From Ceratodon purpureus (Eukaryota; Streptophyta; Bryopsida; Pseudoditrichales; Ditrichaceae), in NCBI GenBank assembly GCA_014871385.1, contig CM026427.1:2662068-2726067 (forward strand): DNA of 64,000 nt, written 5' to 3'. Within the stretch, counting starts at the first letter, position 1. The number at the start of each line of letters is the position of its first letter. The notes under the pieces were generated by a model. That model had not been told where the DNA came from, made no database searches, and saw only the letters and a program-made list of their open reading frames with translations. Position numbers and translations under genes: made by a program. Positions 5,501 to 64,000 of this stretch are shown piece by piece.

Positions 5501-5843
5501 GTGAGTCAATTAGTATTGTTTGCAATACTACAATGACAGGTAGTGGAATCAGATAGTGAGTCTGCGATTGAAATTCGAACTGGGATAGAGAGATCCACTG
5601 ATATAGGAGGATACGTACCTGGTCGCTTAATGGTTCGGTAACGACTTGCCCATCCAACACTGGGTATGCCGCCATTCTTGTAGGGAATGCCATCCTTCGA
5701 AGGCGCTTGACAGATCTTGGAGAAGGCTCCGACGAAACACTGCGAGATCCCACTGAGGACGAGCAAGACCCGTCAGAGGAAGTGGAGGGCCAAGGATCAA
5801 ATTTCAGGGACGGCCCCCTCTGAGATAAACGAAGACAATCCAT
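2591..5843 (-). CDS. TNPA-like CACTA accessory transposition protein (plant transposase, Ptta/En/Spm type)
   Basis: Four exons join in phase 0 on the minus strand: 5843-5619, 5157-4282, 4103-3912 and 3664-2591, giving 788 residues. Each boundary has GT/AG (donors GTACGT, GTATGG, GTACCT; acceptors TTGCAG, CTGCAG, TCGCAG). Residues about 215-330 hold the basic, tryptophan-rich DNA-binding region typical of this family, starting near LKSPWHRAARLN and containing KQWKKYF. The middle is low-complexity, rich in Pro, Ser, Thr and Asn. The last 110 or so residues contain the C-terminal domain with YVLHPEKGDTIVAEGR and YVKWQSRLL. In En/Spm, TNPA binds subterminal repeats and works with TNPD in excision. 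The gene lies inside the element and diverges from the plus-strand genes. Exons 1 and 3 are the least certain. Confidence 0.72.
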
Positions 5844-7397: not shown

Positions 7398-10300
7398 ATG
7401 GCGGATGCTGGCAAACTTCCGACGAGTGATAGAGCTCGGCTGATTGCTCGAGATGAGAAATTGAACAACCGGAAGGAGCACATAGCACGTCGTGATGGTG
7501 CTACAAAAAGGAAGTGCCCTTGCAACATCTGCATGGGATTAAATCATTCCTACAGATTTAGGTCAGTTGTCTCGGAACATTTGAGGATTTACGGCAGACA
7601 TCCCTTCCACAGGGGATCGACCGAGGTGAGAAGTTGAAGATCAGCCTGTTGTATGTATTTATTCACAGTCTATTTTATTAAGATTGTCACTCTTAACTGG
7701 TGCAGCCCGTGGTTACTGAATGGAGTCTGTGTGCCTTATTCGTCATTTTAGGGTTTTAATCCGGACGACAGTGACGTGGAATGGGATGCTACTATACGAG
7801 AGGAATTTGGAGCTGGAGGTGGAATGCTCGACAGGAACGTTGGTAGAAGGTTGGACGAGGGAATGAATATCGAAGGACTCGTGCAACACACATTTCACTT
7901 GTATGATGAAATGGTGGGTAATGCATTCGACGTGAGAGACGGCGTGGATGTGGCAGAGCAGAACCACGAAATGGACCGCAATGGAGGAGAGGCACAGCCA
8001 GGAGCTGCGTCGGGAGACATGTCTGATGGAGTTCCGGAAATGAGAGATGGTATGGAGGGCATGGCGAACGAAAATCCAGGAAATGCAGGGGACGAGGAGG
8101 ACATGGGAGATGATGACCTACCAGCAATGGAGGGAGCTCGACCGACACAGCGGCAGGTACTGCAAGAGAGTGCCAAAACGCCTTTGTTTGCTGGCTCAAA
8201 GCTCACACAGTTGGGAGGTACGCTGCTTTTGCTAAATTGTCTCAGAACTCATGGAGCGTCGAATACCTTGGTCAATGAAGTCTTCTCTATTCTCAGCAAT
8301 AGCATGTTACCAACCGTGAACTCCCTACCCCGTAACGAGTACCAGGCTTCCAAAGTGCTGAATCAATTAGGTCTCGCATATGAGACCATACACTGCTGTC
8401 CGGGACCATTAACATGTGTCCTGTTTCGTGGAGAGGAGTTCAAGGACTTCACAAGCTGTCCAAAATGCGGTACACAGAGGTACAAACAAGTCGGTAGGTC
8501 TAGAGTCCCGGCAAAGGTTTTGAGGTGGTTTCCGCTGATCCCCAGATTGCAAAGAATGTATAGCACCCCTCTACAGGCAAGTTTCCTGACTTGGCATGCT
8601 AGGCATGTTAGTGGGGATGGTATAATGAGGGGAGCAGTTGATTCATACCAATGGAAATTTGTGAATTGGAAGTATCCCGAATTTGCTAATGAGCCTAGGA
8701 ATCTCAGATTAGGATTGGCCACAGATGGGGTGAATCCATTTTCAATAAAACGGAGCACCTGGAGTACATGGCCAGTTTTGATTATGAACTACAACCTACC
8801 GCCATGGATGACCACGAAGAAGCATTTTATCATGCTTAGTTTAATTATTCCGGGGAAGAAGTCACTTACCGGGGAGAGTTTTGATGTATATTTGCAGCCA
8901 TTGCTAGAGGAATTACAGATTCTATGGGGAACGGGTGTGCAAACTGACGATGCCTCTATGTATAACGGGAGTAGACGGTTTAATATGAGAGCTATTCTGA
9001 TGTGGACTATGCACGATTTTCCTGCCTACGGGATAGTGGCGGGTTGTGTTACGAAGGGCTACAAAGGTTGCCCCGTGTGTGGCTCAAACACAATCTCAAG
9101 GCGCTCACTTTCTTTGCGAAAAAATGTGTATGATGATCAACACCGTTGTTTCTTGCCACATGGACACCCTTGGAGAGCTGCTAGACCGGAGTTCAATAAT
9201 ACTGTTGAGAGCAGAGGACCACCCCCGAAGAGGACCGCAGAAGATGTGATTCGATGGGGACGTTTACGAGAGAGCTGGGTAGAACTTCAGGTCGGCCCGG
9301 CCTCATCAAACCCAGCAAGAGAATCGGGCATCAAGCGTTTGTCTTCGCTGTTCGATTTACCTTACTGGAAGGTATGCTCTCTGTATAACCCTTGTTCATT
9401 GCTTCCATAATGTGGTTGCCATTAGATTAATTACCGTGATGCGTATTTTTGTCCATACAGTCTGGAACCTATAAGTGCGGATTAATTTTGTTGCGTTACG
9501 AATTACATTGGTCACAGTGGATCGTGTAAGGTGACTGATACACTCACAGTCATGCTATTAGTTCTCTAGTGTCGTCCTTAAAAACTAGGGTTGAACCTAG
9601 TGTCGTCCTTAAAAACTATGATCAGGTTCCTCAGCTATGTCCTAGTCGACATAGCGGTTGTGGAAGCTGGTAATCCGTGACTGCAGTCGATTCGTGACAT
9701 GTAAATTTCGCCTGGGATGTGGATTGTGCATGTATTGTCCGCATATTCTGATTTCAATGCACTTAGCCACCAACTGGATGTTTCATCTGATTATTTAGCT
9801 TCTGAATTTCACTATTTCCATGCGATTAATCATGTTGTATATATTGCAGCTTGTAACCTCTTATCTTTCATCGTGATGTGTCAATTGTAGGAATTACCGA
9901 TTCGGAATACTTTGGATGTCATGCATATTGAGAGAAACGTCTCGGATAATCTACTGCGGCATCTGTTCGGAGAGAAGGATTCCCTAGAAACACGGCGGGA
10001 CATGGCTCAAGCTGGGAAAATGCATAATCTTCACTTGGTTCTGGGTGCTTCTGGCAATTACATCAAACCAAAGGCGCCCTATACCTTCTCAGAGTCGGAA
10101 AAAGTGGATTTCATCTCACGTGTTTCAGGTACGCAGGTGCCTTCTGGTTACAGCTCCACTTTAACTAAGCACATAGGGGAGAAACGACTCATGGGCTTAA
10201 AAAGCCATGACCATCACATCCTTATTCAACAAATCCTCCCAGCAGCTGTTCGCAACTATCTCAGCCGTGGAGTCCGTGAAACCATTATTCGTCTGGGAAA

Positions 10301-11789
10301 TCTGTTTCAGAGGATATGTGCGAAGGTGATCCGTATATCCGAGATTGGACCACTCCGTACATGTGCTGCCGAGGTGTTATGCCTTCTTGAGGTACACTTC
10401 CCACCTGGTTTTTTTGATATTATGACTCATCTTGTTATTCACTTAGTAGATGAATTGGAGATTTGTGGACCAGTCCATGCAAGATGGTGCTATTCTGTCG
10501 AGAGGTACTTAGGGGTACTTACAAAATACGTGAGAGACAAGTCTAAGCCTGAAGCGGGTATGGCTACTGGCTATATGATCGATGAATCCCTTGGTTTCTG
10601 CACGGAGTACTTTGAGTTGTATGAACATGCTAAAAGTAGGGTATGGGACCCGGAAGAAGAGCTCAAGGACTCTGGTGAGTGTCTACTCGGAGCACCCCGC
10701 CCGAAGTTGCTTTCAGATCTGGAATTGGAACAAATTCACGAATACATCATCAAACATTCGATTCATACGGAGGAACTCTTGGGGTATTCACACCGCACTG
10801 TAACTTCATTAACGACTTCCAAAGATTGTAGCAATCATTTTATTCTAATGCTGAGAAAGAATTGAGCAGAGAAATGTGAACGATTATACCCATTTTACAG
10901 TCTAGTGGCTCTTTGCAGAGAATGGAGTGAGCAGAAAAACATATATAAACTCTCCCGCCAAGCATTCGCAAGATCGATTCGTCGGCCAAGGGGAGGTCCA
11001 ATTCAATACCCTGTGGAGCTTGCAGCAGCATTTCCCCTTTTCAGCTCATGGCTGAACTCTCACGTACGTCAGTTGAAGGAGGCAGATTTCCCTGTATCCC
11101 CAGAGCTAGAATCGCTGCATTGTCCTCCTTCACAGTATGCGTGTGCTTTCAACGCCATGTGGGCTTATGGATGTCATTTCGCATGTAGTGACGAGACACG
11201 CACCACAACTGTGGCGTTTGATTCCGGCATTGCGGCCATTCCACCTTCAGCCACGTGTACCAAAATTGATGTTGGTATTTTGAAGAACATCATTTTGGTA
11301 ACATATGGGGGAGTTAATTGTGTTGTTATGGAGGGATCGTGGATCAGAACTAGAGACCAGGGTCGACGAGTGGTTCGAAAAGACCAGTACGGCTTCTGGT
11401 TAGTCCAATACAATTGCCGTGAGATATGTGAGAAGAAGAACCCATACGTTTTCCCTGCAACAGTATCACAGGTTTTTTTTGTACAAGATACCGTGGACCC
11501 TGCATGGAAGGTTGTGTTGCGTCACGACCCACGGAGCAAGCGAATCCAGGGAGAGAGGGAAGTCTATGTGTTTGGGGCCGGTGGTTCTAGTCGGCCTACG
11601 TTAAGCACTCGATCCACGACCCACGCAAGCAGTAGTCAACCTGGATCTCACAACGTGGATGAGGATGCAGAAGAGGTGCCACCAGAGCGATTCATTGCAC
11701 GCGTGCAGCAAGAAGAAGAACCGAACGATGAAGGCCACTTTGAGGACACTCAGTTTGAGGATGAGGTGGAAATTGCGTATGTAGAGTAG
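7398..11789 (+). CDS. CACTA transposase, TNP2/TNPD family
   Basis: Catalytic transposase of the element. Model exons are 7398-7625, 7752-9371, 9891-10799 and 10872-11789, about 1,224 residues. The first two junctions keep phase 0 with good GT/AG sites. The N-terminus carries the transposase-associated Cys motif (CPCNICMG, then HLRIYGRHPF). Exon 2 holds the Transposase_21/tnp2 core (DGVNPF, STWSTWPVLIMNYNLPPW, FDVYLQPLLEEL, MWTMHDFPAYG, GCPVC). Exon 3 begins with the hallmark LDVMHIERNVSDNLL and continues through a DUF4218-like part (YSVERYLGVLTKYVR). Exon 4 has a DUF4216-like part (VVMEGSWIRT, YVFPATVSQVFFV, VLRHDPRSKR) and an acidic tail. Exons 3 and 4 share one frame, interrupted only by TGA at 10863-10865. 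A 72-bp intron 10800-10871 would restore the protein; otherwise it stops before the C-terminal domain. Confidence 0.9.
9566..9618 (+). repeat. 22-bp direct repeat in transposase intron 2
   Basis: CTAGTGTCGTCCTTAAAAAC begins at 9566 and again at 9597, each copy extending 2 bp further (TA). The copies are 31 bp apart inside the intron (9372-9890). Confidence 0.85.
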
Positions 11790-17061: not shown

Positions 17062-18450
17062 TTACTGCTCTCCAGGCAACATCGTATCGCCATCAGGAAG
17101 ATCACAATAGGCATTCTGTTCACCAGTGAGATGTGCCACACACTTCTTCTCTGCAACCAACTCGTCCTCACTCTTCTTGATGCGCTCGTACAAGTAGTCA
17201 TCGATTTCGCAATCAGTAACCAACTCCCAGTTCCCATCTCCTGTGGAACGGCATGGCATGCTGAAGATGATATCCTCGGCTATTCCGTAGGGATTTCCAT
17301 TCGAGTATACTCCAGATGAGAACCAGTCACCCTCTGGAGTGGGGTTGATGAGCGACTTGATTGCATCTGCAATTGACACAGCTGTTGACGCGGCGGAGGA
17401 TCGACCCCACTTCTGAATGAGTGCCCCTCCTCTTCTCTGCACTCTAGGAGTAAACTCCTCCTTGAGCCACTTCTCATCCTGAATCACATCCACTGCCCTC
17501 GCTTGATGGATTTTGGCATTCAAAAAGTCAGGGACCTGTGTGGTAGAGTGGTTACCCCAAATTGTAACATTCGAGACGTTGTCATAGAAGACACCAGACT
17601 TGAGAGCTAACTGGCACTTGGCTCGATTCTCGTCCAACCTCGTTAGGGCATGGAAATTCCTGGGATTCAGACGTGGAGCATTCTTGAGCGCAATCAAAGC
17701 ATTTGTGTTGCACGGATTGCCAACCACCAGCACCTTCACATCTGGGCTCGCAACTTTGTTCAGAGCCTTGCCCTGCTCAGCGAAGATCTTTCCATTGATT
17801 TCAAGCAGATCACCTCTCTCCATCCCTGGACCCCGAGGCTTGGCCCCAATGAGAAGCGCCCAATCAGCGTCTGCAAAGACCTCCTCAGCTGAAATCCCAA
17901 TGTTCACCTCTCTCAACAAGGGGAACAAAGAATCCTCCAACTCCATAGCCACCCCCTCCAGAGCTTCCCTTGACCTCTCCGACCCCAACAAGTTCAGCGC
18001 AATGGGCTGGTCCTGGCCGAACACTTCCCCAGACGCAAGCTTGAACAACAAATGGTTGGCAATCATGCCAGCCGCCCCTGACACTGCAACCCGCACCGTC
18101 TTTTTCCATGTCTCCGGCCTCTCACCCTCCTTCAAATCATACGTGACGCAAAACACGCCAAAGCACTCCCCTCCCTTCTGGCTCTCTGCAACGCCATTAG
18201 CAACCTCGGCAGGCTCACTCACTGATCTCTCAGTCGTACTGGGGGCGACGTACGCCACCACACCCCGCCTCCTACGCGACTGCTGCTCCACTGCGGCCTT
18301 CACACGAACTCCAGCCACCAATTTGCGCCCCAAAAAAGCACTCGATGACACATTCCCTCCCTTACCCTCTAGCTTCGGCAGCACATTGCCAATCCCGCTC
18401 CCTGCTGCAAATGCAGCCGAATTCCCCGCCACATGAGCCATGGTCGCCAT
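17062..18450 (-). CDS. MDH: chloroplast NADP-dependent malate dehydrogenase
   Basis: Reduces oxaloacetate to malate with NADPH in the chloroplast stroma (malate valve). A single 462-codon frame starts at ATG 18450. Residues 1 to about 65 are Ser, Ala and Arg rich, as in a transit peptide. The redox-regulated N-terminal extension is present as [12 protein letters not shown] with Cys96 and Cys101, and the C-terminal extension as [15 protein letters not shown] with Cys437 and Cys449; these are the thioredoxin-controlled disulphides of the family. The nucleotide-binding loop is SGAAGMI (124-130), and GSERS (156-160) follows the second strand as expected for NADP use. Catalytic Asp273 (TRLDENRA) and His301 (WGNHS) are present, with substrate arginines at 206, 212 and 276. 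No intron interrupts it, whereas seed-plant orthologues are multi-exon. Light control through thioredoxin is expected from the cysteines. Confidence 0.97.
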
Positions 18451-21251
18451 CTCCACACCCCAGCACCCACAACTCTTAGAGACAATCACAAACAACCACT
18501 GTCACGACTTCCTTGCGCAACTCTAATTGTACAAGACTGCATCTAGAAACTTCAAACCTCCAGCAAAGGTGGGATTCGCAAAGAGTGGCTCAATGATTGA
18601 CACACACAATGGACAATTTGCAATTGGTGGCTGTCGGTCCCTTTCCTGGTGCCCCTCAGAGATATTTTCCTCCCTGGCGATAAGACGCTATTGGTCAGAG
18701 ACAGGACATTACTCTTCGGCCACTAAAGTCTCACCACCCCTCCTTCACCATTATCATCACCCTTCAAATTGCATTGAAAAAACGAAGGAACGGAATTGAA
18801 CCAATCCACAGACAGTGCAACACTCCGCTGTACTGTAATACGGAAATTATTGAAATTACAACGCTGTAGTTCTGGTGTGATCTTACTACGGGAATCTAAT
18901 CAAGCCCAGAACTAATCAAGGTTGTTGAGATTAGGATGAAGATGAGGACTCGAGCGGCACACTTGCAGGACACGATCAACTTGAGCAAAAATCAGATAAC
19001 CTTACTGTGAGAAAAGGTAGAAAAAAACATGTAAGCGATTACAGTAATAAAACATAAAGCAATTCTATTGTATGATTGCCTCTCCTCTCAACCTTCGAAC
19101 CTCACACATAATAAAATAATACATCTATGTGGTTCACCTCCAAGCATTATATACAACTACACCAAACTTGTTGCTTTTACATTTTGCATTTTACATTCTA
19201 CGTTCAACATTCCTCTGTTCACAGTCAATATGTATCATCAACTTCCGAAGCCACATTGCTTCGTGTGCAAGTACCAATCAAAATCAAAATCGAAATCAGA
19301 ATCAGAATCCAACGACAAAGAGCGGAGCTCTGGTTGGGGAGTAGTTTTAGGTCTACAGCAGTAACTTACCGGGGTGAGGAGAGTGGGGCTTTGAGGCGTC
19401 TCCCCTGCGCATCCTCCCAGCGTCGAGTCTTGCCACCCTCGGGTACCTCGGGAGCTTGAAGCCTTGAGTCCGCTCGTCCCGCCCGCCCCCTCTCCGCATC
19501 CCCCTCACTCCACTTGCCCCCGTTGCTCTCTCTTCATATCTTCTCCCCCTTCCCACTGCCCTTGTCTCCCCCCTGTCTTCTCCTCCTTCCGGCTCTCTCC
19601 TCTCCGGCGCAGTTGCCCCTCTTCTCCGTGTGCTCCTGTTCCTCTTCGTGATCACTGTGGCACTGCTAGTGCTGGCCTTCATCGTGGTACCAATTGCGGG
19701 TCTCATAGCTCTTCGTGTAAAAATTTATCTCATGATCAGATTTTCCACTTTTTTCCTCTCGATTCTAATTCAAAGTCACGCCTCTGCTCTCAAACTGTGT
19801 GCAAGCAAGATGCACATTGTCTCTGCAACCATATCCATAACCTACTGCAACCCCTCCAACTCCACAGCAATGCAAACCCTCAACAGCTTAACCTAAACCC
19901 ATCTCATTGAACTAGATTCAAACACAAAAAACCCACATCCCCTGCAAACATAACATCTCTCTCTCCACCAATCTCATCTCCACCACCACCTCACTGTGAC
20001 AATTAGAATCTCACCACATAACTTCCCCAAAATTCCTTCCCTCTCAATTAATTCCAATTTTAGGTTACACCTTCCCTTGCACCACAAAATGCATGATCAC
20101 ATTGCCTCCAAAATTGGGCTCAAAATCGATCACACCTTGCAGCTGCCACCATTGTTTATATCCCACACAAGCTCTCAAACTCCATGACAATTAATGTGAT
20201 TAAAAGCTTTGATTAATAGAGATCTGAGCTTGACTTAAACCTGTTGTGCCGATCGAGGTTGCATCAGGTTTCTGGTTTCAAGAGATAAATACTATTATGT
20301 GTATTGCTAGAATACGAAGTTAATTATGCCATGTATGTGTAAACTTAAGTTTAAGTGCATGATATGGGCATGCATATAATACATGTAACGTCACCTTGTC
20401 AATGACAAACTGATCAAGGCTTGAGATGGCAAGGAATGAGACTGTGTTAACGAGTGTTATCTCATGAGAGTGTGTGTGTATGTCCTGATATGAAGAAGCG
20501 ATCACTCATCAGTCTGAGTATTGAACTTCTCTTGAACCACTCTGGCCTTTCACACCCTAACTGTCTCTTCCGCTCCTTTGCTTACTTTTCAGGACTTTTT
20601 TTTTATAGATTTTATGCTTAATTAATATTTATAAATTTAAATATATTTTATTGGTTATTTTTAAATTATTTTTTAATTCAAATTCGTCTAAAAGTAGAAT
20701 CTAATATAATATTTAAATAGTTATAAATGATAGTAAAGATAAGATGATTCAAATACTTTTTTATAAAAATAAACCAATGTTGACTTGTAATTGGAAAGGA
20801 TAACTTCTTTGCTAAAAGAATTTCTTTTTAACAAGCTAAATTTAAAATTAATGAACTAAAAGTTTAAAAGACATGAGTTTGAATAAATCAAATTTAGCTG
20901 TCTCAAACAGTATATATATGTATACATGGTTTATATTTTTTTATATATTTTTTATATAATTTGAGTCATTTACTTGTTGGTTTTGAATAGAGAAATATAC
21001 TTATATATTATATATTATTTTAATTTAAATATATTGAACTTTCAAAATACAAAGGTAATAATCTCTTTAATGTTTAATTCTTTTTTGTTAACTGTTCATT
21101 GTATTGTTCATTCATTTGTACATGTTTTTATTGTGTTTTCAATATACATTGCTTTTACTTTAAATATTCATTTTTATTTTAATTTTTTTCTATATAAAAG
21201 TGATTAATCAAATGATCTTTTTTTTGTTATATTCTAGGAAAATTTTCAACC
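18451..21251. other. MDH promoter side and AT-rich upstream region of the sugar transporter
   Basis: No gene is supported. GATAAG (I-box core) lies at 18679-18684 and a CCAAT box on the MDH strand near 18690, about 230 bp before the MDH start; both are weak predictions. From about 20580 the sequence becomes extremely AT-rich up to the transporter start. Pyrimidine-rich DNA at 19450-19650 gives spurious frames. Confidence 0.45.
19276..19310. repeat. degenerate AATCAR hexamer microsatellite
   Basis: A short run of AATCAA/AATCGA/AATCAG units. The repeat forces Ser/Lys/Glu or Asn/Gln-like translations in all frames, which explains open frames here that are not genes. Confidence 0.7.
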
Positions 21252-59680: not shown

Positions 59681-60190
59681 ATTTCATGGGTACTCATTTC
59701 TCTGCAGGTCGGTCAGGGGGTTGCATCACGTTGACATGAGTTACACAATTAATGATAATTTTCTTTTCCTCCATAAAAAACGAAACCGACACTTACTGGA
59801 GCAGTCTCTTTACTGTAGCAAAGGAGTGTGTCAATTTGGAATTTGGGATCTGGGTCCAAAGAGTGCAACAAAAAAATTGACTTGCGAAAGTGGAGGTCAT
59901 CCTATCACTGGACGCCCAGGTGGGCGGTCACCCCCTGACTATAATCCTCGCCCACGTCTTAATGACATTCGCTATTTCTGTTCCCTTCCGCGGCGGTCCC
60001 GCGAGACAGGGCCCACGGCGCGAGACCCTTCTTTCGCTCCAGAATTCTTTCCGTCGCTCCCCCCCTCTCGCGAGCCGTGCCCGGGCTCGGGATGCCACGT
60101 CGGACCCCGTCTCGAAACCCTCCCTGCCACGTCCGCATCCTCCACCCTGTCTCGTCTCGGAACCCAGAAAGACGAGACACCCCATGCATG

Positions 60191-60210
60191 GGCTGTCTCG
60201 CGAGACAGCC
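60191..60210. promoter_or_regulatory. 20-bp perfect palindrome built from two array motifs
   Basis: GGCTGTCTCGCGAGACAGCC is fully self-complementary and places TGTCTC and GAGACA head to head with a GC spacer. It lies about 320 bp upstream of the TATA-like box, so it is a plausible dimer binding site. Confidence 0.6.
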
Positions 60211-60514
60211 TCATGGCACCATGGCCCATGGGCATGCATGGAGATTTTCATCCATCCGAGACGGACAGAATTCGTCACGTCCTGTCGAATGACCTTCCAC
60301 GTTTTAGGGTATGATGTCTCATTTTCGTGGGTGTCACTTCTGCTTTCTCCTGTCACTTCTGCTTTCAGTCTGTCTCGTCGGAGCTGTTTCGGGTGTTGAG
60401 GTGATGATGGGGTTCTGTGGGTGGAGATCATGCGCCGTCTCTTGCAGCCTTTTCCTCGATTTTGATTTCTGAGGTTTTGTAGGTGTGATGATGGCGTCTC
60501 CCCCCTGCTCCCTG

Positions 60515-60520
60515 TATAAA
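60515..60520 (+). promoter_or_regulatory. TATA-like box for the motif-array gene
   Basis: TATAAA in CCTGTATAAATTGG precedes a long open leader (to 60909) and sits inside the motif array, about 940 bp before the ATG at 61457. The position is compatible with a spliced 5' leader. Confidence 0.45.
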
Positions 60521-60544
60521 TTGGCAGCCTCCTGGAAAAACGGA

Positions 60545-61456
60545 CTCATTTTATGCCATTGCCTGAGGAGAGTTGCGCGAGTTGTCTCGTGGGGTGGTGA
60601 GAGTGTTCCCTCGAGAGGAGGTGCGAGGGTTTATATGCGCGCGTTGTCAAAGTTTGCTAATTTCTCTGCCAATTTCTCTCCGTTTCCTTCTCCGCTGTCT
60701 CGCGCCATTGTTAGATGTGTTACGCTTAGTGTTTGTGAGGTGGAGAGTGTTGTGCGAGAGGCGCTTTCATGGGCGGAGAGTGTTGTGATAGAGTTTGAGA
60801 GTGTTGTGAGAACTGAGGAGTCGGAGTCTGTTGCTGGAGCCGCGATCGAGGAGTTTGTGCGATTTGGTCGGAGGAGGACTGCAGAGGCGATTTCGCAGAG
60901 ACAATCGAGGTATGTATACGTTCATCATCTTCTATGTGTTTATTTTTATGGTGTTCCGGAGAGACGATAGCGATTTTGTTGCCGGAGTTTGTCACAGAGA
61001 TTAGTTTTAGGGTTTAGTAGTCATACGTCACGACGTTCTGGGGTTTAGGGTTTAGGATAGACATGTCTCGTGGAATACTGTTCAGGTGTATCTTGTCTGC
61101 GGTCGTTGTGGGTGGCCTCGCTGCTATTGTCGAAATCAAATGAGGACGACGATGTCGCCCCCGTTACAGGAGTGTCTCGCGTTGGAATTGGGAGGGAGTT
61201 CTTGAGTATACCAATTTTGTGCATAGAATCTTAATTTCTGTTCCGATTCGTCGTTCATGTTTCGCCGAGACAAAGATCCGTCGTAGAGGCTCCTTCCTGT
61301 CGTCCACAGTTCCTGCCGAATTTGATGTGCACGGTTTTTGCTTCGCAGCTGTCTCGCAGTCTCCGCGCTGTGTCTGTGTCTCGGAAGGTCTTATAAACTT
61401 CGCATCCAGGTTACTAACCTCCGCCCCTGTTTGTTTTAGGTTCAAGTTAGCGAGAC
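60545..61456 (+). other. probable 5' leader with intron (about 60910-61439) of the motif-array gene
   Basis: A good donor (ATCGAG/GTATGT, exon end 60909) and acceptor (TTGTTTTAG/GTTC, exon start 61440) would remove 530 bp and place the ATG at 61457 17 nt into the next exon. An open frame of 161 codons (60485-60970) precedes the donor. After splicing it would read into a different frame from the main protein, so it may be an upstream open frame, a separate small protein, or chance. Confidence 0.4.
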
Positions 61457-64000
61457 ATGGCTCCCGAGTACAGGAGGAACCTCCAGATCACGGACGACGG
61501 CGTCACGGAGGTCCACGAAAGCGACAAGAAGTTGTTCACGGAACACTACACATGGGAAGAGTGGAAGAATTTGCTCCTGGAGTGTCATAGCGCGCCGGTG
61601 ATGTTAGGACGTCGATTGTTCTGCTGCAAGCACAAATGCCGTGGCAAGAATGGGGAGCCCATGTGTGCTCAGAAGGCGCGTCTAAATACTCATAGATGGC
61701 ACGGGTGCCCCCAAAATGTCGACGCGAACGGTTTCGTCATCCCGGAGAAGATGTACCCGAACCTGCTTGAGAAGAACGTTACCATTGACAAGCTGCAAGC
61801 GGGTGTCTCGCCCCAGAAGTTGGTGAGGGACTACGTGAACGAGACACAGGCTATGTTGCGGCGAGGGGAGCCGGTCAAATTCCAACAAGGCGTCCCTGCG
61901 ATTCGTGGTCCGAGTGATAGATCGCCGAAGAAGCAGACGAAGAAACCCATGAAGGCCGAGAGAAAATCTGTCCCTGATAGGTTGGCTGTCAGGAGTTTGG
62001 AAATGGTGCTGAGCAGTTCAGATTCCGAGGCAGAGGCAGACAGTGACTTTGTGGCCTCGGACTCGCCCGTGGTGGAGCGAAGACCGTTCATCGCCAATCC
62101 CGAGACGGCACCGACGCCTCCTGTTGTCCCTATCATCCTCTCACCGCCCCGGCGAGACACATCTGCAGGCGAAGAGGACGCCACGGGAGCTGTACCTGAT
62201 ACGTTCATCGTTCTTCCTCGGGCAGGACTCACTCCTCGACAGCGAGACAAGAAAGGACGAGACATTGAAGTGAAGGCTTCCAAGCCGGAGGAGGAACCCG
62301 AGGAGAGGGAGTTCTACTCTCGGAAAAACAAACGCAAGACCACCCCGGCACAGAGGGTCCCAGCGGCAAGGAGCGAGACAATCACGACGGCAGCGAAGCG
62401 ACCGAAACCATCGGACGAGAAACCGCCATCCCCAATCCGGGACGAGACAGCCGGGTACGCCTCGGATACGTCTCGGATACGTCCCGGGGACGGCTCTGAA
62501 ATGGCCGTCTCCACTCCCACTGTCCACACAAAGGATACTGGAGCGGTGGCTATGGTGGTCGACGAGGCCCCGATGGAGGTTCCCCTGAGCCCAATGTCCG
62601 CCTTAATGCGAGACAAGGAGAAGGTTGTGGAGGAGGCTCAAGAGGCAGCGGAGTCCCTGTTTACAATAGATCCAATTCGCCAGCCCGAGACACGCTTGGG
62701 ACACACGGGCCTCACCATCCTAATGGATTATGGGCTTTTTGGGGAGGAGAGGGAGTTCCACACGTGGGACAGGGGAACTCTTCGGACCAGACTGGGGGAG
62801 TTCTTGAAGAAGGAGGGGCGCGAGACAATCATCTCGCTTACCTACTTCCGATTCCAGAAGTTGAATCGAAAGGTACGACATCTCCTCCCTGGAGTTCTCA
62901 ACTTCATTATTTTATAATAACTTGTACTTGTCGTGAATATGTTGCGATATTTTAATTCATTTCCGTCTATCTTTCATACTTGTCTCGCACTTCAATCTGT
63001 GCCTCGAGGTTGCTAACGGGGGAGGACTGCCGTACTCTCTGAATTGCAGAATTCTCTATACTCCGAGAGAGATAGCGGTCTAGCGGCAGATCTTTCTGAA
63101 GTGTTGGACACCGGGGAAATGTCCGAGACAGAGATGGATCGTCTCGCGAACGCCTCCATGGACTACTACGTCAATGTCCACGACTGGAAGAAACACGAGG
63201 AGGCCGTAGATGCCCAGCGCCTTCATAACGCCAGACTGAAGGAGAAATTCATCGCGGACAGGGTTGCAGCGTGGGAGGAGTCCAAGGCTGGGGAGTTGGA
63301 GGAAGTGTCATGGGGTTGGAATCCCCTGTACCACATATGCGCGAAGAACCCCGCTGTCTCGGAGAGGCTACCTCCCATGCCCTGGAAGCACAACGAAACG
63401 GAGGCGCGAGACGTGGTCAAGGCACTCGGTACGAGACGGACGCTGCCAGTCGGAGCAGGTCTGGAGGCAAAGATCATTCGCGTTTTCCTCCTCGTCCACA
63501 ATATTCGGTACAGGTCAGTATTGTGTACTTGTTTATTTTTATTTTTTCCTCCTGAGGTACTTTATTCAATTCAACATATTTTAAAATAAAAACAAAACCG
63601 TCACGGGCCCCTCATATTTTCCTCGTGCTCTGGTATAACAGCTCAGCGGACCCACTGCAAGGAGCACTGGACAAGAGTGTCCAGGAGAAGTTGTCTTCGC
63701 CTGGAGCTCTAGACACAGCGAGGTGTCTCGTTCAGGCCGCTGGGAGTACACTGTTCGGTGCTGATCCAAACGCCGAGACGGAGACGTCGGACGCCATTAC
63801 AGCAGCATGCATGTCCCTCCACAGCGGTGTCTCGGATGACCTGCAGGCGTGGCTCCTTTCAGTCCAGGCTCGGGCACTGGAGGACTTTGCATCTTCCGAG
63901 ACGGAATCCTTTATGACGGCGTGGCAGTTGACGGCGCCCGTCTCGGAAGAGGTATTCCCAGAGTGCTTGAAGATTTTGCGGCAAGCATTAACTCGACGGG
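61457..64000 (+). CDS. unrecognised multi-exon gene of the motif-array element (3' end beyond window)
   Basis: Exons 61457-62872, 63050-63513 and 63642 to beyond 64000 join in phase (AAG/GTACGA to TTGCAG; AG/GTCAGT to AACAG), at least 746 residues. The N-terminal 90 residues have a Trp-rich helix (HYTWEEWKNLLLE) and a Cys/His cluster (C56, C57, C61, C70, H79, H82, C84), possibly a zinc-binding DNA-recognition module. Residues about 150-400 are a charged, Ser/Pro/Glu-rich linker with basic patches. A compact part follows (LTILMDYGLFGEEREFHTW, LTYFRFQKLNRKV). Exon 2 is helical with Trp-rich motifs (WGWNPLYHICAKNPAVSERL). Exon 3 is open to the window end. I do not recognise the family. The coding sequence itself carries about 20 copies of the CGAGAC/GTCTCG motif, which suggests a mobile or selfish element. 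Confidence 0.6.

Follow-up and report, generated by a model that had tools for sequence, protein, structure and literature searches.

A short word repeated through the genes, introns and ends of a Mutator-like element of Ceratodon purpureus

The 64,000-nucleotide stretch of Ceratodon purpureus (Bryopsida) analyzed here, hereafter the window, covers positions 2,662,068 to 2,726,067 of contig CM026427.1 (assembly GCA_014871385.1) and contains at its right end a dense array of the hexamer CGAGAC and its complement GTCTCG. The array runs through coding exons, introns, spacers and terminal inverted repeats (TIRs) of a transposable element which, by its sequence, is a Mutator-like element (MULE). 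It very probably represents a genuine, selected array of binding sites. As the best overall explanation, in which we place about half of our confidence, we propose that it is an element-private recognition array of the kind read by VANC proteins of Arabidopsis VANDAL elements, extended here into the genes and read by a protein that the element itself encodes.

Results

Extent and composition of the motif array

Within the window part of the array, a recount returned exactly the 41 hexamers (22 CGAGAC and 19 GTCTCG) and 29 heptamers (CGAGACA/TGTCTCG) given in a preliminary description of this DNA. An order-2 Markov model of positions 60002-64000 itself predicts 5.3 hexamers, with the window's first 60 kb as background the figure is 1.1 per 4 kb, and outside the array the other ~60 kb contain 17 in total. 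The contig was read 45 kb onward past the window end, with positions given in window-extended coordinates; the array was found to continue to a final site at 70958, and its flanks are free of the hexamer for 1.7 kb before 60002 and for 13.4 kb after 70958. In 38 kb read beyond the element, eight hexamers were counted. Because the ends of the array are bounded by an inverted repeat of 317 bp (315/317 identical between ends), the unit was defined as 59933-71032, an element of 11,100 bp of which the window holds the left 4.07 kb (Table 1). It carries 113 hexamers and two predicted genes, referred to as the left gene and the transposase gene; all gene models, including that of a third open reading frame (ORF), were predicted on the basis of splice signals and open frames. 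The heptamer occurs 78 times within these 11.1 kb, corresponding to ~7 per kb, and 26,404 times (~0.07 per kb) in the searched genome of 362.5 Mb and 151 contigs, in which the window is C7:2662068-2726067; the reversed control word was found 38,407 times genome-wide.

The base following CGAGAC is A in 78, G in 29, C in three and T in three of the 113 sites, and T precedes the hexamer in 12. For the 41 window sites, a following A or G was observed in 40 and a preceding T in one. The consensus is roughly CGAGAC preceded by a base other than T and followed by A or G.

The motif belongs to the element, as had been proposed at the outset, because at 30 TIR loci (many of them the two ends of one same copy) the 1.5 kb inside the element ends hold 346 hexamers and the 1.5 kb outside hold 17, in 45 kb each. 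Three of these loci have just one to four hexamers inside, and the element match stops there soon past the repeat. Eight loci picked solely for one heptamer showed zero to two additional hexamers in 3 kb, and no unrelated stretch of the DNA examined reached an equal motif density.

Inside the element, the sites lie in coding and non-coding DNA and in both orientations, in line with the preliminary description: 57 are exonic (6,840 bases, 8.3 per kb) and 56 non-exonic (4,260 bases, 13.1 per kb). The density is highest in the TIRs, together containing 16 hexamers in 634 bp, and interior 500-bp bins hold two to seven each. Of the retrieved TIR loci, 29/30 carry eight hexamers and one carries seven. 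The strands are represented by 29 and 27 sites outside exons and by 37 sense and 20 antisense sites within them, and each gene shows all six frame-and-strand combinations; the use of two codon frames in exon 1, noted earlier, was found again. Along the element, the orientation is random (59/46 for 105 sites, right repeat omitted; runs z -0.7), and the spacing of the 113 sites is somewhat more even than random, with 55/3,000 random placements being as even. Tandem arrays overlap sites in two places only, a 27-bp array with repeated motifs in a transposase intron and an 11-bp array in exon 1. A perfect palindrome of 20 bp, GGCTGTCTCGCGAGACAGCC, lies at 60191-60210 in the left TIR and at the matching place in the right one; it consists of two heptamers back to back, beside ATGCATG words.

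Codon choice in the exons

The exonic sites are carried by codon choice, not by the protein sequence. In a synonymous shuffle permuting the codons within each gene, thereby keeping the protein and the codon counts, the left gene is expected to hold 8.2 sites (SD 2.5, maximum 18) vs 36 seen, and the transposase gene 3.4 (SD 1.7, maximum 9) vs 21 seen; none of 5,000 shuffles reached the observed number in either gene. Of all hexamers that the coding sequence contains, CGAGAC stands first, far ahead of the others (z 15.2, 300 shuffles). Motifs driven by the protein were considered and are disfavored, because synonymous shuffles lose most exonic sites. On the level of dipeptides, the left gene spells Arg-Asp as CGA GAC in 8/11 and Val-Ser as GTC TCG in 6/12 cases, and 14 of its 17 Glu-Thr pairs have the spelling GAG ACR with a C in front. 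Glu-Thr is itself in excess in the left protein (17 vs 6.7, nominal P 6e-4, one among many dipeptides). The transposase gene uses the corresponding spellings in 4/6 Arg-Asp and 5/8 Val-Ser pairs.

The element and its copies

Judged by sequence, the element is a recently mobile MULE of the TIR type, consistent with its initial assignment as a mobile element. The transposase contains the PF10551 MULE domain (E=2.4e-7, 31.5 bits vs a cut-off of 27.6, scored on a pieced translation slightly unlike the final model), 9-bp target-site duplications are present, and the long TIRs are a usual, not universal, MULE character. A genome search with the TIR gave at least 40 matches, all spanning its positions 1-317, which could be paired by eye into 13 pairs lying 11.1-11.6 kb apart. 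Besides the window copy, ten full-length copies were read, nine of them showing an exact target-site duplication of 9 bp and the remaining one of 10 bp; five copies are oriented opposite to the window copy. Nine of the eleven copies differ mutually by 0.2-1.1%, whereas copies C1 and C6_93 differ from these by 3.4-3.7% and 4.7-4.9%, respectively. Both genes are free of internal stops in four copies (the window copy C7w, C6_36, C6_583, and C7_16), and one or both are interrupted in the other seven.

The window copy itself has no target-site duplication, and its 30-base left flank (59903-59932) recurs together with the repeat on contig C63 near 34107; this would fit a locus that was rearranged or duplicated, or else a haplotype left unplaced. 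On contig C6, two of the 13 TIR pairs, copies of ~11.55 kb (58275560-58287104 and 58349845-58361395), lie 63 kb apart with matching flanks and are likely an inverted segmental duplication of one insertion, because the flanks are identical sequence in opposite orientation. The one of the two that was read, C6_583, carries an insertion of 451 bp with complementary ends at 63554, in the intron between left-gene exons 2 and 3.

Conservation of the sites was evaluated across the eleven copies. In total 41 substitutions fall into motif sites compared with a mean of 74.8 at circularly shifted sites, a value as low being reached by 7/5,000 shifts. The same direction is seen for the nine young copies (9 vs 21.9; 66/5,000 shifts), for C1 (12 vs 22.4; 62/5,000) and for C6_93 (20 vs 30.3; 178/5,000). 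Per site, the motif shows 0.060 substitutions vs 0.109 for other hexamers starting or ending with CG. Non-exonic sites show a strong effect (17 substitutions in 339 motif sites vs 540 in 3,921 others) and exonic sites a weaker one (24 in 342 vs 638 in 6,498); in exons, the nine young copies spare the motif sites (1 in 342 vs 189 in 6,498). The expectation that the motif is kept beyond protein identity holds for the copies overall and fails in the exons of the two older ones, C1 and C6_93, as detailed below. Sites also turn over: 126 positions carry a site in at least one copy, with 80 being shared by all eleven.

Predicted genes

The spliced left gene encodes 1,392 amino acids with zero stops and runs opposite to the transposase. 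For exon 1, two homologues (P0001 and P0002, 74% identical over the exon) were found in the protein collection. Pfam returned no match for residues 1-746 at E<=5 and none for the C-terminal 766 residues at E<=10; likewise, NCBIfam gave none for the Ulp1-like end described next, and a homologue search with residues 900-1392 none at E<=10. The last exon matches the Ulp1-like SUMO protease structure PDB 6dg4 weakly (E=0.04). His, Gln, and Cys of 6dg4, which together with Asp we take to be the Ulp1 catalytic residues, are matched in this alignment and Asp stands opposite Gly; a His-Asp a few residues further in the query could replace it solely via re-alignment by eye. The C-terminus of the left-gene product is possibly Ulp1-like. 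Predicted structures were too poor for use, with predicted local distance difference test scores of 37 for exon 1 and 40 for the Ulp1-like exon. Both genes look constrained, the left gene less so: when the window copy is compared with C1, the crude ratio of nonsynonymous to synonymous changes (pN/pS) amounts to 0.22 in the transposase and 0.53 in the left gene.

The transposase is predicted to have 886 amino acids; Pfam gave a SWIM match below threshold and otherwise recognized no DNA-binding domain in it. A transposase relative is annotated in C. purpureus. Downstream of it lies the third ORF of 128 amino acids, open in 11/11 copies and without Pfam match, a possible third gene. Its likeness to an ORF of family B was considered and is not significant (383/1,000 shuffles).

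A related family with another word

Searching the genome with the transposase yielded at least 80 matches, including older relatives at 78-86% identity and two groups near 41-43%, one of them a second related family at ~41%. Locus L064, one copy of one related group, shares 39-43% identity over most of the transposase. It contains five CGAGAC hexamers in 10 kb and no such array; AT-simple words aside, the words most in excess overlap one another as parts of AGTGTCACA. TGTCAC occurs 16 times in the first 5.9 kb vs 4.6 expected (shuffle maximum 11) and AGTGTCAC nine times vs 0.3 expected (shuffle maximum 2), the best 8-mer of the shuffles reaching seven in 1/100 and at most five in the others. 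All 16 TGTCAC lie at or before base 5805, and in the coding exons the word is found nine times vs 2.5 expected (0/3,000 shuffles), compared with two vs 1.1 for CGAGAC. This suggests that the related family carries a different enriched word, AGTGTCACA. Bases 1-5805 of L064 also hold a transposase ORF with basic repeats (APRKKK), and same-score matches elsewhere in the genome suggest recent copies.

Other features of the window

Outside the element, the window holds a CACTA-type element and an intact ORF which is probably a malate dehydrogenase gene, putatively of the chloroplast (Table 1).

Table 1. Features of the window and of the element extending beyond it (positions above 64000 are window-extended)
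Feature	Position	Strand	Description
CACTA-type element	7776-11789	+	successive ORFs: Transposase_21 (E 1.4e-70), DUF4218 (E 1.5e-34), below-cut-off DUF4216
Intact ORF	17062-18495	-	lactate/malate dehydrogenase N and C domains, N-terminal extension
Left TIR	59933..60249	+	317 bp, 8 hexamers; partner 70716-71032 beyond window
Motif array, window part	60002..63945	both orientations	41 CGAGAC/GTCTCG
Left gene, possible 5'-untranslated-region intron	60910..61439	+	putative, GT...AG by eye; motifs in both orientations
Left gene, exon 1	61457..62872	+	N-terminal Cys/His-rich stretch, low-complexity middle; 12 hexamers, two codon frames
Left gene, exon 2	63050..63513	+	frame open across GT-AG junctions
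Left gene, intron	63514..63641	+	between exons 2 and 3
Left gene, exon 3	63642..64000	+	cut by window end, continues to 64036
Left gene, exons 4-5	64143-64986, 65163-66222	+	beyond window
Third ORF	66678-67064	-	beyond window
Transposase gene, exons	70323-69824, 69650-68909, 68826-68627, 68469-67251	-	beyond window

Discussion

Comparison with known systems

The preliminary description had named VANDAL elements and their VANC proteins as nearest precedent. They are still the nearest system found, with several features of the element departing from it. Likenesses are the MULE superfamily, an extra gene beside the transposase, and a dense short motif that is specific for the family, seems to differ between related families and is private to the element in the sequence examined. 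According to one report, VANC21 of Arabidopsis binds YAGTATTAY and VANC6 targets carry AGTTGTCC/AGTTGTAC; these VANDAL motifs are family-specific, mainly non-coding, same-oriented and tandem, and coding probes without motif were bound much more weakly (PMC5735166). Another source calls it enigmatic what methylation loss does in VANDAL coding regions and how it is controlled (PMC10398659). In the element described here, by contrast, 57/113 sites are exonic and both orientations are mixed, and two short tandem arrays overlap sites, whereas VANDAL motifs grew as tandem repeats. VANDAL elements furthermore are non-TIR elements, unlike the present one with its TIRs of 317 bp, and VANC proteins, which bind their motif and remove DNA methylation, have DUF1985 and DUF287, while the left gene is without Pfam match.

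KAONASHI (KI) MULEs, with a Ulp1 protease domain in a gene beside mudrA, offer a second comparison, sharing a second gene that runs reverse to the transposase and has, possibly, a Ulp1-like end. A review mentions a captured Ulp1 domain in some VANC genes (PMC13317346), and a grapevine study describes ULP sequences in both TIR and non-TIR MULEs and in both orientations, with 9-bp duplications being typical (PMC2528002). The Ulp1 homology is weak here (E=0.04, no Pfam match), Arabidopsis KI-MULEs are without TIRs, and the available portions of both sources describe no motif array in coding sequence (PMC13317346, PMC2528002).

Parts of the arrangement have precedents; of the layout as a whole, with both-orientation sites through the coding DNA of a TIR element, no description was found in the open-licence literature, which is weak evidence. 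The DNA uptake sequences of Neisseria and Haemophilus, being short words on both strands of genes and spacers that are read by a protein, are an analogy only, since they concern whole bacterial genomes and DNA uptake and not a eukaryotic transposon.

Possible readers of the array

The word is present throughout the element, in its terminal repeats and spacers and in its introns as well as its codons. Few of the sites lie in tandem repeats, and most therefore probably arose through point changes. In the mechanism we favor, a sequence-specific DNA-binding protein would read the dense array, occupying the element family and little else. This reader is probably encoded by the element; it is most likely element-made because the related element has a different enriched word, an observation which is itself suggestive. 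The favored candidate is the 1392-aa left-gene product with its N-terminal Cys/His stretch and possible Ulp1-like end, which would act in a VANC-like manner and keep the element free of silencing marks. For the left-gene product rather than the transposase as reader, our judgment is about evenly split, the probability being reduced because the Ulp1 alignment lacks the Asp. That anti-silencing is the purpose of the array is, in our view, about as readily doubted as believed.

As a doubtful but serious alternative, the transposase may be the reader, the array then being an extreme expansion of subterminal binding repeats with a role in synapsis, transposition control or self-regulation and not in anti-silencing. 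The repeated short motifs of Spm/En, bound by TnpA, and of Ac occur in both orientations as they do here, and TnpA reportedly counters promoter methylation. The subterminal transposase-binding repeats of Spm and Ac lie within a few hundred terminal bases and are not known from coding sequence, and both elements belong to other superfamilies. The peak of motif density in the TIRs is what such an origin would predict, and of the two element genes the transposase alone was found in locus L064, which still shows an enriched word. Unlike the end-confined repeats of Spm and Ac, however, the interior of the element is loaded as well, and Pfam names no DNA-binding domain in the transposase apart from the SWIM match mentioned above.

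An improbable reader is a host protein, e.g., an auxin response factor, providing host-driven transcription or open chromatin. TGTCTC, the classical auxin response element, is contained in 78/113 sites, but its first T is swapped for C in 29/113. The final G, in turn, is required: among the 85 GAGACA of the element only seven are without the preceding C, and variants at this base show no enrichment. An auxin response element agrees badly with this pattern of flexible and fixed positions, and this identity is disfavored. A host reader alone would also not account for the different word of the related family within this genome, or for sites throughout the exons.

It is quite improbable that the array has no reader and arose passively, through mutation bias, gene conversion or tandem duplication. 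The intronic 27-bp array with its repeated motifs is of the kind tandem duplication would leave, and words one letter from the motif are enriched (e.g., CGAAAC, 19 vs 6.5 expected), which could reflect site decay or birth. Passive repeat growth is disfavored by the few tandem arrays, the overlap with sites being limited to the two short ones, and motif sites collect fewer substitutions than shifted controls. Mutation bias would have to act on both strands within one element and stop at its ends, and we know of no such bias. Very improbable, finally, is a feature on the RNA or codon level (splicing enhancer, RNA-binding site, favored dipeptides or unusual codon usage), toward which the sense excess of exonic sites (37/57) and the Glu-Thr excess of the left protein would point, but which is disfavored by site orientation, with both strands near parity and density higher outside exons, and by the loss of most exonic sites in shuffles preserving protein and codon counts.

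Several observations weigh against an element-private array read by the left-gene product. Exonic motif sites are not spared in C1 (11/342 vs 199/6,498) or in C6_93 (12/342 vs 250/6,498), and CpG bases within C1 motifs change like other CpGs (10/254 vs 51/1,338). In exon 1, P0001 and P0002 show no special conservation of the residues coded by the motif (18/31 vs 302/441), and the transposase displays the dipeptide pattern less strongly, with C preceding 2/7 Glu-Thr pairs. The left gene shows no Pfam match to DUF1985 or DUF287. Concerning the related family, the word was derived from one copy and chosen on the same locus on which it was tested, and TGTCAC ranks second, not first, among the coding hexamers of L064. 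A tblastn search of this locus with the left gene gave no match and yet the word is enriched, which favors the transposase as reader, or a left gene that was lost or is fast-changing.

Implications

A central question in work on VANC proteins is by what means a protein that prevents silencing can cover kilobases of a single transposon and yet spare the host. Since coding DNA carries the sites here, this question becomes testable with protein-identical, motif-free versions, and the 13 TIR pairs are available for comparison. In its general form, for and against which the arguments are about equally strong to us, the reading would mean that the elements of a MULE clade impose a second code on their own genes. 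Each family would spread its private word over exons, introns and termini, mainly through synonymous codons and here and there through a preference for dipeptides such as Glu-Thr; a single protein made by the element could then cover the whole element and not the host, and related families in the same genome would use different words. If true, this would give eukaryotes a clear example of protein-coding sequence made to carry a DNA-binding code, found in a plant that is probably only distantly related to Arabidopsis.

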